Virus record (IMG/VR): IMGVR_UViG_3300022882_000020
Span: 1-22,796 of that record
Source of the DNA: a virus
Strand: one strand, 5' to 3'
DNA length: 22,796 nucleotides
Part shown: one piece after another, positions 5,188-22,638 of the stretch
Layout of the letters: every line of letters begins with the position of its first letter
How positions within the stretch are numbered: the first letter of the stretch is position 1
Program-made: the position numbers and the translations under genes
Notes under the pieces: generated by a model
Databases searched by the model: none
What the model was told of the DNA's origin: nothing
Seen by the model: the letters and a program-made list of their open reading frames with translations, nothing else

Positions 5188-5621
5188 GTTTCAAACCTCA
5201 ATTGTTGTTTTTCCCATAAGATACTGTATTTTAGAATTTCATCTGACTCTTTTCTCTCAATTCCAATGCTCCAGCCTATGCCAAATACGTTTAATATTTC
5301 ACCAGTCACTGTTATTTTTTGCGCTACGCTATCTGTTATCATAAAAGCCAAGGCGTTTTTTATTGCTTCTGTGCCATCATTTTTTGTTTTATCTGATACC
5401 GTTCCACGTGAAACTACATCTGGAAATTCAGAAATTAACCTTTCTGAATCTCTCTCAGTGATAGCATTTTGCCAATTCTTTTCCCCAAAAACAGATAAAA
5501 TGACCAGCGTTTCAAGGCCATCTGTCATAGTAATATCAACATAAGAATCAGAATCATAGCCTATGTCAAAAAGCCCTGTTTCTTCATTAATTTGTAGTAA
5601 AATGTCGCCTTCGTAACTCAT
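5184..5621 (-). CDS. baseplate wedge protein, Mu gp46-like (GPW/gp25 type)
   Basis: The 145-aa protein has the gp46 layout: an N-terminal DILLQINEETGLFDIGYDSD, then DGLETLVILSVFGEK, and a C-terminal ferredoxin-like segment (VAQKITVTGEILNVFGIGWS). The protein joins gp45 and gp47 in the Mu baseplate and is the counterpart of T4 gp25. It begins at an ATGA overlap with the spike gene and ends at an ATGA overlap with the J gene. No unusual feature is seen. Size and position agree with the family. Confidence 0.88.
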   Translation of the reverse strand: MSYEGDILLQINEETGLFDIGYDSDSYVDITMTDGLETLVILSVFGEKNWQNAITERDSERLISEFPDVVSRGTVSDKTKNDGTEAIKNALAFMITDSVAQKITVTGEILNVFGIGWSIGIERKESDEILKYSILWEKQQLRFET

Positions 5622-10161: not shown

Positions 10162-10455
10162 TTAATAATTTCCCTGTTTTATACCAAGTCGTTCATTCAC
10201 TATTGAAATGACCATATGTGGCGAAGGTGTTTTTTTCGGGTCTTTATTTATCATTTCTGACACTACTGCCTCTTCCGTGGCCTGTTTTAAATATTCACAA
10301 TACCATTGTTTTATATCTCTATTCCATGCCATCCCAAACATGTCCGGTATTGTCAAGCCACCTCTGAACCACCGTGCGAGGCTTGCTATGATTTCTATTT
10401 GATCATCATAACTTATATTTACTCTTATTCCATTCTTTCCGGGGATGAACGGACG
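10162..10455 (-). CDS. tail assembly chaperone, frameshift extension (Mu gp42-like position)
   Basis: This frame is continuous from the slippery site to a stop at 10162 and would add 97 residues to the gp41-like protein. It reads RPFIPGKNGIRVNISYDDQI, then EIIASLARWFRGGLTIPDMF and further helix to GIKQGNY. There is no ATG start with a ribosome site before this region; the only internal candidate is a TTG at 10356, which would remove conserved-looking residues. The upstream part reads as sensible protein across the gap between the two annotatable frames. That supports expression as a 224-aa fusion by -1 frameshifting, as is general for tail chaperone pairs. The extension would bind the tape-measure protein, whose gene follows at once. 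Confidence 0.8.
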   Translation of the reverse strand, partial: RPFIPGKNGIRVNISYDDQIEIIASLARWFRGGLTIPDMFGMAWNRDIKQWYCEYLKQATEEAVVSEMINKDPKKTPSPHMVISIVNERLGIKQGNY

Positions 10456-16165: not shown

Positions 16166-16834
16166 TTCTGTCTCCTGCTGTTTAGGTTTATTATATTTAT
16201 CAAGTCTTGAAACAAGCTTTTCTAAAGCTTTAAAATCAAGATTTGAGTCTTTCTTTTTTATCGCATTTATGCTGGCTGTATGAAGTACTTTAGTTGTAGC
16301 GACTGCACTATCTCTATTTAAGTCTTCCTTGCTCTCAATTAATTCGTCTGCAAAGCCAGCCTCAACAATTTCTTTTCCGAAATAATACGTTTCTGCCTCT
16401 AATAACGTTTTAATTTCCTGTATAGATTTTCCGCTTTTTCTTGCATGAGCTTCAGCAGATAGATTTGCTAATCCCTCTAAAACGTCAGCCGTTTTTCTTA
16501 ACTCTGCATAATCACCAATTGCCATAGTCCATGGATTATGAATCATGTAAACGGCGTTGTCATATGCTTTTACATGAGCAGCCGGCAATGTGGAAATATA
16601 AGCCATCATGCTCATTACCTGCCCCTGCATTGTGATAGTTATTTTAGCAGTAGGAAAACTTGCTGTGTAGTCTCTCAATATATTATATATTTCAATGCCA
16701 TCATAAACAGAACCTCCAGGACTTACAATTTTTATATCAAGAGATTCGCCCGCAGCACTTGCTAATTCCTCACGCACTGCTTCAGGGTTGATTTCCCAGC
16801 CGACATCACCAGCTAAAACGAGTTCCTTAGTCAT
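15797..16834 (-). CDS. head maturation protease (ClpP-like) fused to scaffold
   Basis: The 345-aa protein is a ClpP/S49-type phage prohead protease. It has the opening LVLAGDVGWEINPEAVREEL and SPGGSVYDGIEIYN. The catalytic Ser is likely S75 in GQVMSMMAYIST and the His H99 in VYMIHNPW. The acidic residue aligns near E148 (AETYYFGKEIVEAGFADEL), where ClpP has Asp. A charged linker (about 200-223) joins it to the C-terminal scaffold. It is shorter than lambda gpC. The ATG overlaps the portal stop by 8 nt. It would cut scaffold and perhaps portal or capsid ends during maturation. Confidence 0.9.
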   Translation of the reverse strand: MTKELVLAGDVGWEINPEAVREELASAAGESLDIKIVSPGGSVYDGIEIYNILRDYTASFPTAKITITMQGQVMSMMAYISTLPAAHVKAYDNAVYMIHNPWTMAIGDYAELRKTADVLEGLANLSAEAHARKSGKSIQEIKTLLEAETYYFGKEIVEAGFADELIESKEDLNRDSAVATTKVLHTASINAIKKKDSNLDFKALEKLVSRLDKYNKPKQQETEMDLTEFKQKHPELYKIAVTEGKALGEKQAKDGDASQKAIKEAVQAEKDRVSGLMALQADKKYQDIEEVSELIASAIKKGKAESDIRSEIADIVLAKFEDMKLGAPLGLQKAIINDDSGAYEA

Positions 16835-18446
16835 TTTTTAATCCGCTTCCCTCAGTTGTTTTTTTACCGAGTTCATTATATTTTGCCCTTGTCGCTGCAA
16901 GCGCATTAAATTCGGTTTTGTTAATATCTAAATTTTCATCGTAATCCGACCCGTTTAACTCTTGTGCCACCCTTCTTCCAGTCGTATAGCCCATTTCATG
17001 GTTTAGCTGATGCCCCTTTGCTGTTCGCAAAGGATCAATATCGGGCTTCTGCACGCCAGTAAATTCAGATCGTGTCCATCCGTCTCTATTTTCTTCGTCA
17101 TCCCAACCTGTAACAATTATTTTGCCACGCTTGACCTCCTCATAAAACCACGCCTTATGAACAGCCCCTGCAAAATTACTACCGAATTTTTTTCTTTCCT
17201 TGTCGATGTGTAGCCACATTACAAGCAATTCGCCTCTTGCAGCCGTGTAAGTGTTTGTGAAATGGTATTCAACTGTTGATAAAGAAAGCCCGCACTGGGA
17301 TGTTATATCTTTTTTCATTGCTGTATAGAATTTTTCAAACTGAGGAGTCGGTCGTTTTGTGTCGTAACTCTCAATCGAATGTCCTGCCGGCATCTGGTCA
17401 ATGATAACGCTGCGTTTCTCTATGCCTATTTTTTCAATTGCAAGCTTTGTATCTACCGTTGCAGTTGTATCAGGATTGCTTGTTGCAGTTTTCCGTGCAG
17501 CGCCCCCAAACACGGCCTTGCTTGCCGCATTATCAGGCGGTTTTACCCATGCTGCAATCAAGCTATTCAATAAAACTGACTGTAATTCAAAACGAAGGTA
17601 ATCAGCAAGCATGGTAAGCTGAGGCATTACAAAAGTTAGGAGAGGCGTACCTCTTCTAAGATGTTCAAAAACTTTATTGTAATTAAACAAAACACCTGGC
17701 CTTCTGATATTCGGATCAAAAACATTATAACGAATTGAATTAGCTTGGTTATTATACAGTTCAGAGAATGGTCTTATCCAAGTTCCGACCATCCTGCCGA
17801 ATGGATTATATTCTATACCATCAACAATAACATGATTTTGTCTTGGGCTTCCACTTCCATCAATGTGATCAGACGGAATCAATTGTAAAGAAAGGGAATT
17901 CTTTTCGGTATAAGAAGTACTCCTATACCTTAAAAGCGCCATGCTTTCGCCAAACATAAGATAATTAAAAAAAGCGGCTACTGTCAGCTCATAAAAATTT
18001 CTTTCATGGAGATAATCAGCCTGTTTTGATAACGCCCACAGTCTGAACCTCGCCTCATGTGTCTGCATCCATTCCTTGCGAGCTTTATCATCCATTTTTT
18101 TAGCAGGATCAATGATCCTCCACATAGGATTTGATTCAAGCTCAAGACCAGCACCAACAACTAATTCAAGGGTTCTATCAACTATGGCTTTTCCAAGCCC
18201 TGATTGATAATAGGCAGTGTGAGAGGCAGCTCTTGCATATGCTAAGTCTGCATCAGTCCAGTCGCCATTCGACCTTGGCCCGTAAAGTTTTTCATTGATT
18301 GCCTGGCGGTTACCTATTTTCCCGAATGCTTCAGCCATGCGAGTCTTGGCTTTTGTGCTCTCAATATCAAGCCGTATTTGTTCCTGCTGTAAGCTGGTTT
18401 GGGCTTGTTCTAAAGTTTTCTTGCCGCTACTTTTAAAAGGCCACAT
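16827..18446 (-). CDS. portal protein, lambda gpB family
   Basis: The 539-aa protein matches the lambda portal family. The N-terminus is MWPFKSSGKKTLEQAQTSLQ, followed by the diagnostic DADLAYARAASHTAYYQSGL and AIVDRTLELVVGAGLELES. Later come VLFNYNKVFEHLRRGTPLLT, the stretch CGLSLSTVEYHFTNTYTAAR, and WDDEENRDGWTRSEFTGVQK. Lambda gpB is 533 aa, so this is full length. The dodecameric portal forms the DNA entry vertex and binds terminase and the gpW-like joiner. ATG 18446 lies 3 nt after the gpW stop, and the end overlaps the protease start by 8 nt. Confidence 0.92.
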   Translation of the reverse strand: MWPFKSSGKKTLEQAQTSLQQEQIRLDIESTKAKTRMAEAFGKIGNRQAINEKLYGPRSNGDWTDADLAYARAASHTAYYQSGLGKAIVDRTLELVVGAGLELESNPMWRIIDPAKKMDDKARKEWMQTHEARFRLWALSKQADYLHERNFYELTVAAFFNYLMFGESMALLRYRSTSYTEKNSLSLQLIPSDHIDGSGSPRQNHVIVDGIEYNPFGRMVGTWIRPFSELYNNQANSIRYNVFDPNIRRPGVLFNYNKVFEHLRRGTPLLTFVMPQLTMLADYLRFELQSVLLNSLIAAWVKPPDNAASKAVFGGAARKTATSNPDTTATVDTKLAIEKIGIEKRSVIIDQMPAGHSIESYDTKRPTPQFEKFYTAMKKDITSQCGLSLSTVEYHFTNTYTAARGELLVMWLHIDKERKKFGSNFAGAVHKAWFYEEVKRGKIIVTGWDDEENRDGWTRSEFTGVQKPDIDPLRTAKGHQLNHEMGYTTGRRVAQELNGSDYDENLDINKTEFNALAATRAKYNELGKKTTEGSGLKND

Positions 18447-18449
18447 ATA

Positions 18450-18707
18450 TTAATTCCATTCCAATGTCACAAAACGAGCGCCGGATGTCGTACTTCCTGC
18501 TTTTATCTGTTTTGCTTCCATCCATAAAGAAAGCGAAGCTTGAATATCTGTAATCTTTTGATATTCGACATCTTGCCTACCCTGCCCTGTATCAAATTCT
18601 AATACCTTCGCTTCCATAGCTGTATCCAAGATGCCTTGATATGTAACTATTTTTGCATCAATTTGTTCTGCTGTGTAGCAATTCGAAATTAATTCAGGGG
18701 TAAGCAT
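18450..18707 (-). CDS. head-tail joining protein, gpW-like
   Basis: The 85-aa protein has a helix (NCYTAEQIDAKIVTYQGILD), a beta turn (KVLEFDTGQGRQDVEYQKIT) and a second helix (DIQASLSLWMEAKQIKAG). This helix-hairpin-helix form fits lambda gpW (68 aa), and its position directly before the portal is the same as in lambda. It would seal the portal after packaging and make the platform for the tail. AAAGG lies about 6 nt before ATG 18707. It is the first gene after the palindromic control region. The family match is by shape and place rather than a clear motif. Confidence 0.7.
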   Translation of the reverse strand: MLTPELISNCYTAEQIDAKIVTYQGILDTAMEAKVLEFDTGQGRQDVEYQKITDIQASLSLWMEAKQIKAGSTTSGARFVTLEWN

Positions 18708-18734
18708 TGCAAGCCTTTATTTTTTATAGTGATT

Positions 18735-18766
18735 ATAATTATAGTTGCATATACAACTATAATTAT
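18735..18766. repeat. perfect 32-bp inverted repeat (13-bp arms, 6-bp centre)
   Basis: The arms 18735-18747 and 18754-18766 are perfectly complementary and separated by CATATA. The arm on the right reads CAACTATAATTAT. It lies at about +1 to +32 of the promoter candidate before gpW. It could be an operator for a dimeric regulator or, as RNA, a leader hairpin. No T tract follows in the minus direction, so it is not a simple terminator. Confidence 0.9.
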
Positions 18767-18773
18767 GCCGTGC

Positions 18774-18800
18774 AGTATCACAGTCAATCTTTTATGTCAA
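18774..18800 (-). promoter_or_regulatory. candidate sigma70-type promoter upstream of gpW and portal
   Basis: On the minus strand TTGACA (18795-18800) is followed after 15 bp by GATACT (18774-18779), which carries an extended TG one base before it. Initiation would fall near 18767, at the edge of the palindrome. The 188-bp gap between the ParB-like gene and gpW is otherwise non-coding. The -10 is weak (4 of 6), so this is a candidate only. Confidence 0.4.
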
Positions 18801-18895
18801 CCCCAAAGATATTTATTCTTTTTTTAGCATACCTCTTGACAATATGAACCGAAGGGCGCAGCGGGGAGTTTGATTTTTTATAGCACGCCTTCTTT

Positions 18896-19522
18896 TCAGC
18901 TCTTAAATTCGATAGAAACGTTTTCATAGCTCTTTATCAGATTTTTTAAAGGCTCTGTAGCGGCATTCATGTCAGCGAGATATTTAAAAACAATTTTCGC
19001 TACATGGTCTTTTTTTTTAATTTCAGTTTCATCGCCATCGGAATCAAGCAACCCATCAAACCCCCAATCATCAAGTTCCAATAAATCCCATTCGTTCGCC
19101 AGCAATTCAAAATCCCATTCGCCAAATGAATTATTATCCTTCATCGAAATTGCCCTAAGCTTTTTCGCTGCAAACTCACTATCAATTAGCTTGATATTGA
19201 GGCTGCCAATTTTTGTATTGTCTTTATTTAAGGTAACCCCTTCTATTCCCTGAAAAACGGCTACACGGTCAGAAGGTATTTGTAATTCTTTCAGGGCTTT
19301 AAGTCTCATGTTTCCACACAATACGATAAATTTATTTTCGTATTCGTACACGAGCATTTCACGCATTGTCAGCATCTCAGGATCATCAATGATTGATTGT
19401 AATAATTTATCAAACTTAGTATCCTTAATAATCCGTGGATTAGCCGGAACATCAGGTATCTGCCCTGTGTTCATTGATAATTGACTTAGTTTTATGTTTA
19501 CTATTCCGTGTTCGAGACCCAC
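18896..19522 (-). CDS. ParB N-terminal (ParB/Srx-fold) domain protein
   Basis: The 208-aa protein has the ParB-like order: ANPRIIKDTKFDKLLQSI with NPR at 28-30, then the box FIVLCGNMRLKALKELQIP (G70-x-x-R73, the ParB nucleotide-binding motif area). It continues with MKDNNSFGEWDFELLANEWD (GEWD at 134-137) and DDWGFDG (153-156). Such 'DN..fGeWD...LanEWd...L.dWGf' tails occur in phage ParB-like proteins that are often next to or fused with a DNA methyltransferase. None is present here. It starts at GTG 19522 with GAGGAGG (19530-19536) 7 nt upstream; G overlaps the terminase stop (TAGTG). The role is unknown; DNA binding or regulation of packaging are inferences. Confidence 0.75.
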   Translation of the reverse strand: MGLEHGIVNIKLSQLSMNTGQIPDVPANPRIIKDTKFDKLLQSIIDDPEMLTMREMLVYEYENKFIVLCGNMRLKALKELQIPSDRVAVFQGIEGVTLNKDNTKIGSLNIKLIDSEFAAKKLRAISMKDNNSFGEWDFELLANEWDLLELDDWGFDGLLDSDGDETEIKKKDHVAKIVFKYLADMNAATEPLKNLIKSYENVSIEFKS

Positions 19523-21900
19523 TATCCGACCTCCTCAAAGTATTCTTCAATTGTATTTATGAAAAAGGATTCGCCCATGTTGTCCAAAGGCTCAAATCCA
19601 TCCTTTTGCCGTTGTTTATTTATCATATCAAAAAGCAGGTTTTTCATTAACTGTTTTGCTCCTAAACCCATCTTTGCTATATCCAATGCCTCATTTCGCC
19701 TTTGTGCTTGGTTTTCTATCGTGATTGTCTCTATGCCTGCTCTGGATACTTTGCGAATTATGTCCTCAGCAACTAATTGTTTATAAAAAGCTGGCGGGAA
19801 CGTGTCCGGAAAATGAATAAATCCAAACGGGAAGCCACCATCCTTGTGAGGCCTCTTGCTCAGTTTATTATAAAGCTCTTTTTTTAAAAATTGGTCATTC
19901 AGCATCACCATAGGTGTTTCAATGTCATTCTGCACGAGCTTGCACCGCCGCCCTTGCGTTAGAGTTTGCCGACCTGCACACGGATAAACTCCTGATATGC
20001 TGTTTTCCCTGCTAAAACCATCGCAGAAGGAATTGACAACATCCCTTTGAAATCCTGCATCAATCAAGCTCATAATAATTTTAAGCTCACGACCATCTTC
20101 TGTTTTGTATGTTCTCAAAATCCTTTCTGATAGCTGCTCCCATGTTGAATCACTATGATCAGTTGGATTACCTTGTATTGCATCCGCACCCACGGCATGT
20201 CTTGACCAATCCAGGCTTTCCGGAAAAACCCAATAGTCAAGAAAATAAATTTGTTCCTTTTTTCCCCAGCCCATTAAGCCCGCCTCAATCCGGTTACCTT
20301 GTATATCTGCCTGTAATGTCAGGAATAATACGTCGTCAGGAATATGGCAGCGCTCCCTGTCACTTGCATAATGTGAAATATTTTCAGCAGTCGGCTTGGA
20401 AAGCATGTCTGTTGAGGGTTCGCCGAGTACATCATTAATGAAATCATTTAAAAGGCTTTTATCCATTTGTGCATTTTGCCACTGCTGAATCATATCCAGC
20501 CAATTTCTGTAAAAGAATCCTGGGATATGATACGACCTGACTCCAAACTCTTTCGCCTTTACAGTCGGCTTCCAGATAGCGCCTTTTTCCTCTGATAAGA
20601 AAAAATCCCTATCACTTTCGTACCATTTGCCCTTACATTTTATACACTCATACCAGACTGGCCTATTGGTAATGACAGGCCGTCCGTTTACTTCTTTTGT
20701 TTCAATATTTAGTTGGCCGGTTTCATCTTTTTCCCATCTGAATTGACTCCACTTCATTATTTGTAACTCGCCACAATACTTACACACAGTATAATAATAC
20801 CTTTGATCACCTCTTAAAAAAAGTGGGTAAATATTACTTGCATCCTGGTCTTTAGGTGTTGATAATCCGAATACCTTTTCCTGTTTATTTTTGGCGTATG
20901 TATTTACACGCCTCATGGCTTTTTCAATTGTATTACCGCCGCCACGCAGCATCGGTGGGTACACATCAGTTTCATCTAATATCAAAATACGTATCGGGAA
21001 TGACCTTAGCTTGCCCTCGGAGTTGGGGCCGACAGCCCGCATAAATGTCCCACCATACATTTTCGAAACTTTTGTATCTCCAGTAGCTTTTTTGTGTTTT
21101 TTTTGAGTATTCGGGGCTATCTTGTCCTCTAATCCACACCCATAGATAACGTCATCAATGCGCTTTTCCATTGTTTCAGCGGCTATATCGCCATCTGCTG
21201 AGACAAACAGCATGGGGCCAATACCATATTTAACACAAAAGCCCATTAAATTTTCAGCTAAGCCAGTGTTACCGCCCACTTGCGCTGCTTTCATGAGATA
21301 TAATTGTCTTGTCGAGCTTTGTGGCGAAAGCTCCTCTGCGGGTTCACGCATGTAGGGGGTTCTATCAAAACTGAATTTACCCGGTGTCGCCGTCAAGCCA
21401 CTGCTTATATACCTGTCATTTTCGGCAAACTCTGCTACTGTTTCTGTAATATTAACTTCTCTGAAGGTGTCAATACGATCCAATAGCCATTGCTTCCAAT
21501 CCAACAAAACTGATTCAGGCGGCAAATAAGGCGGCGGCCTCAATCCTCCGGATGGCGCTCTCCAAATAACTTTTGAACCATATCCTTGCCGCTTTTTAAT
21601 CAAGTGGATTAACAGCAGGACTTCTATTATAATAACGTCACGTGACGTTTTAAGCTTTTGAGTAATAGAAAGATGTTTAGCTTTAAGCCATTCTGTATCT
21701 TTACTACACCAGCTTTCATACAAGCTATAGTAATTAGCTGTATTTATTTTTAATAAAACTGGATCAGCATCTTTATCTTTTGTTAATGATTTAAGAATAA
21801 AGCGAGCATGGTTAACTAATTCAATAGGCCGATCTTCAGTTACAATTTTTACTATCTCTGCATATGTAACACTTACTAATTTTTCGATAGGGTTATTCAT
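19522..21900 (-). CDS. terL: terminase large subunit, GpA family
   Basis: The 792-aa protein has an ATPase and a nuclease part. Numbering is from ATG 21900: a deviant Walker A (KAAQVGGN, about 204-211), Walker B ILILDE (D309, E310), and coupling motif FGLSTPKD (about 344-351). A zinc-ribbon pair follows (C373/C376 and C419/C422), then the nuclease start FLTLQADIQGNRIEAGL with D532. The GpA type makes cos-end packaging likely. ATG 21900 overlaps the small-subunit stop as ATGA, and it is preferred to TTG 21921. Lambda gpA is 641 aa; about 125 extra residues lie before the usual start region (VLLDWKQWLLDR). Confidence 0.93.
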   Translation of the reverse strand: MNNPIEKLVSVTYAEIVKIVTEDRPIELVNHARFILKSLTKDKDADPVLLKINTANYYSLYESWCSKDTEWLKAKHLSITQKLKTSRDVIIIEVLLLIHLIKKRQGYGSKVIWRAPSGGLRPPPYLPPESVLLDWKQWLLDRIDTFREVNITETVAEFAENDRYISSGLTATPGKFSFDRTPYMREPAEELSPQSSTRQLYLMKAAQVGGNTGLAENLMGFCVKYGIGPMLFVSADGDIAAETMEKRIDDVIYGCGLEDKIAPNTQKKHKKATGDTKVSKMYGGTFMRAVGPNSEGKLRSFPIRILILDETDVYPPMLRGGGNTIEKAMRRVNTYAKNKQEKVFGLSTPKDQDASNIYPLFLRGDQRYYYTVCKYCGELQIMKWSQFRWEKDETGQLNIETKEVNGRPVITNRPVWYECIKCKGKWYESDRDFFLSEEKGAIWKPTVKAKEFGVRSYHIPGFFYRNWLDMIQQWQNAQMDKSLLNDFINDVLGEPSTDMLSKPTAENISHYASDRERCHIPDDVLFLTLQADIQGNRIEAGLMGWGKKEQIYFLDYWVFPESLDWSRHAVGADAIQGNPTDHSDSTWEQLSERILRTYKTEDGRELKIIMSLIDAGFQRDVVNSFCDGFSRENSISGVYPCAGRQTLTQGRRCKLVQNDIETPMVMLNDQFLKKELYNKLSKRPHKDGGFPFGFIHFPDTFPPAFYKQLVAEDIIRKVSRAGIETITIENQAQRRNEALDIAKMGLGAKQLMKNLLFDMINKQRQKDGFEPLDNMGESFFINTIEEYFEEVG

Positions 21901-22571
21901 ATACCCATAACTTCTCTGCAATATTTCTTAACTTCTTGAATACCGACCTCCACCTCTTTATTAATTATCCCCTCAACCACAGACTCCATTCCGACTGTAT
22001 TCATTTTAGAGCAAAGATCGGCGGAAAGTCGCTGGCCTAAATAGACAAAATTCATTGTAATTGCGTTGTCTATAGCACCGAGCGTTTGTTTTACAAGTGC
22101 CTGTAATATCACTTCTTTTTGTTTTTCAGCTATTATAAGTTTTAGCTGTTCATTTTTCAGGACTACTGTCAAATCCTTAGGCGAGAGATTATCAAATGCA
22201 GGGCTATGAGCTGCGGGGGCTATCGGACGTACTGGTATAGGATGTTGGCGGCTTTCCTGAATAGGAGGGGTATCATTGACATGGCCAGGTGTTGCCCTTT
22301 GCTCATTGCCTTTGTTTCGTTCATAAAGCAGTTTAGCCCGTTCAGCTTTATCTATTTGCCTCTGTTTTTTTTTTGAATCTGCAACTAATCGGCTCGGTTT
22401 CCTCGCTCCAGTTACATATTCCCAGAATGACATTTTATTGGTATCAACACTACTCCCCTTAAAGAAATTCCAGGCGTTGCGATTTAGCTTGGAAAGGGCC
22501 TGTCTTGATACCGCTTTTTCTCTGAATCCGTTTATAATTTCCAATGCTTCGGACTGTGTTAGTAGTGCCAT
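21897..22571 (-). CDS. terS: terminase small subunit (Nu1-like)
   Basis: The 224-aa protein has an N-terminal helix-turn-helix-like segment (LTQSEALEIINGFREKAVSR and QALSKLNRNAWNF). A Lys/Arg-rich linker with a run of Lys and a Pro-rich segment (TPPIQESRQHPIPVRPIAPA) follow, then a helical C-terminus (LKNEQLKLIIAEKQKEVILQ). This is the usual order for lambda Nu1-type proteins: cos DNA binding first, then oligomerisation and large-subunit binding. It is the first gene of the block and is coupled to terL by ATGA. AGGGAAGGGG lies about 5 nt before ATG 22571. Direct sequence similarity to Nu1 is weak; position supports it. Confidence 0.7.
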   Translation of the reverse strand: MALLTQSEALEIINGFREKAVSRQALSKLNRNAWNFFKGSSVDTNKMSFWEYVTGARKPSRLVADSKKKQRQIDKAERAKLLYERNKGNEQRATPGHVNDTPPIQESRQHPIPVRPIAPAAHSPAFDNLSPKDLTVVLKNEQLKLIIAEKQKEVILQALVKQTLGAIDNAITMNFVYLGQRLSADLCSKMNTVGMESVVEGIINKEVEVGIQEVKKYCREVMGI

Positions 22572-22609: not shown

Positions 22610-22638
22610 AAGTTTACACTATTATTTTGAAGTTTACA
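22610..22638. repeat. two AAGTTTACA direct repeats, 20 bp apart
   Basis: AAGTTTACA occurs at 22610-22618 and 22630-22638, with the following bases CT and TT. The exact 20-bp step (about two helical turns) places both on one DNA face. They are 40-60 bp before the small-subunit gene and could be terminase (cosB-like) or regulator sites. Confidence 0.6.

Follow-up and report, generated by a model that had tools for sequence, protein, structure and literature searches.

A putative repressor operator at a candidate internal promoter before the head and tail genes of a contractile-tailed phage

The one large intergenic gap in the packaging/head block of a contractile-tailed phage carries a strong dyad, and a diverged relative keeps a TTGACA box and the symmetric core of this dyad at identical spacing before the same gene. 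As its sequence and position suggest, the dyad is probably an operator at which a repressor acts on an internal promoter of the head and tail genes. Taken as a whole, the explanation that we favour, with somewhat better than even confidence, is an operator for a homodimeric winged-helix repressor at an internal minus-strand promoter; from this arrangement we infer that the promoter is active, that a regulator binds the dyad and represses transcription, and which kind of regulator it is. The window, i.e. the whole stretch of 22,796 nucleotides that was analysed, is a 22.8-kb piece of the phage genome in which all annotated genes lie on the minus strand. They encode a GpA-type terminase, a ParB-like protein, an 85-aa protein, a lambda-family portal, a ClpP-type protease, decoration, capsid, and sheath proteins, and a tape measure. 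The block is tightly packed, with gaps of at most 15 nt apart from 68 nt before the tape measure gene and 188 nt between the ParB-like and 85-aa genes, and the latter is the sole large gap of the packaging/head block, as the earlier note had stated; no other gap between packaging/head genes exceeds 14 nt. The 68-nt gap (10357-10424) lies between the ORF of a 136-aa tail protein and a 64-aa TTG-start ORF; the interval before the tape measure is the usual site of the tail-chaperone frameshift. The features around the 188-nt gap are the following:

19522..21921, minus strand: terminase large subunit (GpA family), assigned by domain search
18896..19522, minus strand: ParB-like protein, the upstream neighbour of the gap, with weak PHROG matches only and no Pfam match
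18708..18895, minus strand: intergenic gap of 188 nt that separates the 85-aa ORF from the ParB-like ORF, with 34% GC against 41% in the window
18795..18800, minus strand: TTGACA, putative -35 box, 38 nt upstream of the core and at equal distance in the relative
18772..18780, minus strand: TGaTACTGC, weak extended -10 candidate after a 17-nt spacer; the relative has TGtTATGGG
18735..18766, minus strand: dyad ATAATTATAGTTG-TATATG-CAACTATAATTAT (gene strand), putative operator, the best dyad of the window
18745..18756, minus strand: TTGTATATGCAA, putative operator core, 11 of 12 positions conserved in the diverged relative (contigs L006/L164, 5540-5551)
18450..18707, minus strand: 85-aa ORF that would open the putative second unit, with 64% identity to its counterpart in the relative
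16827..18446, minus strand: portal protein (lambda family; PF05136, E 2e-45), second gene of the putative second unit

The dyad consists of two perfect 13-bp arms around the 6-nt centre TATATG and ends 27 nt before the ATG of the 85-aa gene (18707). The perfect arms that had been described initially are thus present, but the palindrome is not perfect over its 32 bp: a central pair just inside the arms (18748 C / 18753 A) is mismatched, leaving 15 of 16 pairs matched. No stronger dyad exists in the window, and 60 order-1 Markov shuffles peaked at 11-bp arms. A search for further copies in the window, allowing up to three mismatches, returned this single occurrence.

TTGACA is present in the gap on the minus strand, where it had been noticed before. 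Counted from it, the predicted +1 falls at about 18765, which places the dyad at about +1 to +32, in line with the previous description of a palindrome starting near the transcription start. The extended -10 candidate fared less well: its TG and first TA are there, but the remainder fits the consensus poorly, and the hexamer is poor in both the window (TACTGC) and the relative (TATGGG). A consensus promoter scan of the minus strand gave two other weak candidates (9/12), with a number of promoters not above that of shuffled sequences, and either phage has 13-14 copies of TTGACA on its gene strand.

Two near-identical contigs (L002 and L003) match the region without a single change and, being near-identical, provide no independent evidence. 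The diverged relative L006/L164 (19.6 kb) shares 71% protein identity in the terminase, 69% in the portal, 73% in the capsid (MCP), and 64% in the 85-aa protein. Directly before its 85-aa gene stand TTGACA (5496-5501), 38 nt, and TTGTATATACAA (5540-5551), followed by the ATG at 5567. The distance from TTGACA to the core is equal to the nucleotide in both phages, which have the arrangement TTGACA-N38-(TTGTATATRCAA) before the 85-aa gene in common. In the relative, the core sits in a perfect 14-bp palindrome, TTTGTATATACAAA, and the outer arms of the window dyad are lost. Absence of the dyad from close relatives had been named beforehand as evidence against a function; instead, it is exact in the two near-identical contigs and its core persists in the diverged one. 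The proposal of a regulated internal promoter before a head/tail unit gains support from this shared arrangement in a relative at the ~70% level.

The 56-nt pattern has one match in the 19.6 kb of L164 and none in 200 shuffles of the contig. The L006 gap was also shuffled 20,000 times with its dinucleotides preserved, and no shuffle placed a core as good as the real one 36-40 nt from a TTGACA; the caveat is that we chose the spacing and the core window once both sequences were known. By itself, the core turned up at some place in the gap in 14 of 5000 shuffles. As L164 has another TTGTATATACAA within a coding gene (position 18024), this 12-mer is not unique. The comparison comprises two independent lineages: searches of the viral contigs with terminase, portal, and capsid queries returned only the same three contigs. 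In a search for the host, the terminase query found no relative among genome contigs, and a sample of 1,172 genomes from three phyla yielded no match at E<=1e-100, which is uninformative in a run without a positive control. A chance dyad without function would be easier to accept in an AT-rich setting such as this gap (66% AT), and when the two gaps are aligned locally without constraints, their similarity is indeed not significant (53 of 1000 shuffles equally good). Nevertheless, we regard chance as improbable, given arms longer than the best found in shuffles of the whole window and the exact TTGACA-N38-core before the same gene in a diverged phage.

The dyad might also act as RNA, i.e. as a stem-loop in the 5'-UTR of a polycistronic late mRNA that marks a site of processing or stabilisation or adjusts how well the 85-aa gene is translated. 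The window transcript would indeed form a strong hairpin between two translation units (-16.8 kcal/mol, z -3.41, with none of 200 shuffles as stable). However, the corresponding region of the relative has the DNA symmetry without the hairpin (z -0.08), the hairpin-making arms are what was lost, and an Rfam search yielded no family match. A symmetric core kept where there is no RNA hairpin points to selection on DNA symmetry, and the shared part includes the central ATAT, which would be the loop in RNA and thus favours a protein reading a DNA dyad. We therefore consider a role as RNA unlikely. An intrinsic terminator was also rejected as a candidate, with a stem that is AU-rich and lacks a U-run and a terminator scan that called none.

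In the relative, a 410-aa radical-SAM gene (4071-5303 in L006/L164) sits exactly between the ParB-like and 85-aa genes as accessory cargo in the packaging/head block. The gap could accordingly be a cargo slot, with promoter and operator left over from an accessory gene that brought its own regulator and has since been lost. Cargo that comes and goes in this slot would suit such a history, as would a gap that is AT-richer than the phage and a site of a host-type operator class. Still, TTGACA and core of the relative lie beyond the cargo, beside the 85-aa gene, and coexist with this cargo, so that they go with the head genes rather than with the insert; a relic of lost cargo is, in our estimation, a rather unlikely origin.

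The operator reading, to which we return, also points to a class of regulator. At least 118 exact loci of the 20-mer ATAGTTGYATATRCAACTAT were found in a collection of species-representative genomes, against roughly one to a few that base composition would predict (our own estimate). Among the 20-mer matches listed, a MarR-family ORF starts within 150 bp in 44 of 118 loci, and MarR-like ORFs make up 44 of 140 near ORFs (31%) versus 26 of 1090 far ones (2.4%) at the same loci. Pfam assigned MarR to 45 of the 125 ORFs adjoining the 20-mer among the matches listed, GntR to 9/125, and UTRA to 8/125. Since the 20-mer adjoins MarR genes, and less often GntR/UTRA, the site belongs to a known operator class; going by the letters of the site, this class is MarR first and GntR/HutC second. 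The gap flanks were compared with the 118 genomic loci as well, and the dyad itself was the sole match.

The 20-bp sequence is of the same class as MarR-family operators from several bacterial phyla, which are TTGC/GTTG...CAAC dyads near the promoters of marR-type genes. Among the described members of this broad MarR operator class is TTAGCAAGCTAA of SlyA (PMC8070244). There are also differences from the genomic MarR loci. TTGACA-like boxes at these loci stand mostly 15-29 nt (16/31) or 35-54 nt (9/31) upstream of the dyad centre, whereas TTGACA is 50 nt from the dyad centre here, so that the dyad falls downstream of +1. MarR-family operators adjoin MarR genes, while neither a MarR nor a GntR gene was found on the four phage fragments, which exclude the early region. 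Operators of the GntR/HutC subfamily have GTATATAC-type cores, a class that the palindrome of the relative and the shared TTGTATATRCAA of both phages fit too; the outer arms in the window (ATAGTTG...CAACTAT), however, fit the MarR set better. A literature search for MarR operators in phage late promoters retrieved nothing directly relevant. In two bins, CAJXZK01 (SRR5620817_bin.58) and JAUPUU01 (Cyanobacteriota WHONDRS bin.40), the 20-mer dyad occurs in many copies, some of them paired 56-66 bp apart and mostly without a MarR neighbour, possibly as a dispersed palindromic repeat family.

The ParB-like protein had been suggested earlier as one possible ligand, in which case the dyad would be a parS-like centromere or loading site. 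In the window its gene directly precedes the gap, in the relative it precedes the radical-SAM insert, and ParB-like PHROGs are weakly matched. On the other hand, no Pfam ParB or HTH domain was detected at E<0.1, no relative with a solved structure was found, and the best PHROG matches are proteins of unknown function, nucleases, and methyltransferases and not partition proteins. The dyad is also unlike the classical parS (TGTTTCACGTGAAACA), and an AF2 model of the protein built from two sequences was uninformative (pLDDT 36). With no DNA-binding domain detected, which does not prove that there is none, and a core class that adjoins MarR genes, the suggestion finds no support, and we rate a parS-like site as very improbable.

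Under the repressor-operator explanation, a homodimeric winged-helix protein, MarR-type by the site or possibly GntR/HutC-type, would bind the dyad. The internal promoter, with its TTGACA at 18800-18795 and the weak extended -10 at about 18775, would drive the 85-aa gene, the portal gene, and the downstream head and tail genes, with the operator at about +1 to +32. Bound repressor would block RNA polymerase at or just after the start, i.e. at initiation or escape, and once it leaves, the structural genes would be transcribed above the level that read-through from the promoter of the terminase provides. In its place at or just after the predicted start, the phage dyad resembles downstream (roadblock) operators, of which lac O1 is an example, with a dyad at or just after +1. 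A more far-reaching version, which we regard as unlikely and offer as speculation, is that a ligand-sensing repressor of MarR/GntR type, host-encoded or captured and distinct from the lysogeny repressor, puts virion production, separately from the packaging genes, under the control of a host metabolite or stress signal.

Structural blocks of phages are usually treated as one late operon. If the reading is true, a conserved and separately operated promoter means that packaging and head/tail genes are tuned independently. As the site sequence points to a named, host-type class of regulators, the ligand can be searched for directly. Operators at phage promoters are common and the significance is thus modest: this is a gene switch of a common kind in an uncommon yet plausible location, and it adds one example to a known kind of element.

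The head of the packaging operon has a TTGACA of its own in both phages (22705-22700 in the window, 213-218 in L006), and the repeat found there (TGTAAACT) differs from the dyad. In the window (22610-22638), TGTAAACTT occurs twice as direct repeats 20 bp apart, and L006 (280-318) has a perfect palindrome with 15-bp arms, TGTAAACTCTATAGT...ACTATAGAGTTTACA. An operator of the same sequence as the dyad was not found at the operon head, where the repeats are likely a second, different operator. The different repeat leans towards a different control protein, and two operator types at two promoters would fit independent control, the idea of separately timed units that the earlier note had raised.

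Scanning the viral contigs for TTGACA-N35-40-TTGTATATRCAA returned 32 stretches, many of them inside genes and probably due to chance. Two units have TTGACA, 35-40 nt, and TTGTATATACAA close to packaging genes, namely 35 nt before the terminase large-subunit gene in L137/L138 (L137:6452-6541) and 22 nt before the terminase small-subunit gene in L146 (11514-11591). They differ from the window in their terminase family and in that the unit precedes the terminase and not the portal. The structural proteins of these phages show no detectable relation to those of the window phage at E<=1e-4, except for one weak protease match in L138 (28% identity, E 2e-9). Because chance matches are expected in a pattern scan, these units are a lead only, and they may represent a recurrent operator of packaging genes or a coincidence.

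Two minor observations concern the upstream half of the gap. A GC-rich stretch at ~18840-18870 was considered as a repeat or mobile element and dismissed, with matches among phages, plasmids, and viral contigs only in the two near-identical contigs. Upstream of the dyad, both phages have an outward-facing TGTCAA...TTGACA pair, separated by 35 nt in the window (18836-18841 and 18795-18800) and by 31 nt in L006/L164 (5459-5464 and 5496-5501), and the opposite strand of L006 at this pair has an 11/12 promoter match (TTGACA-16-TATAGT).
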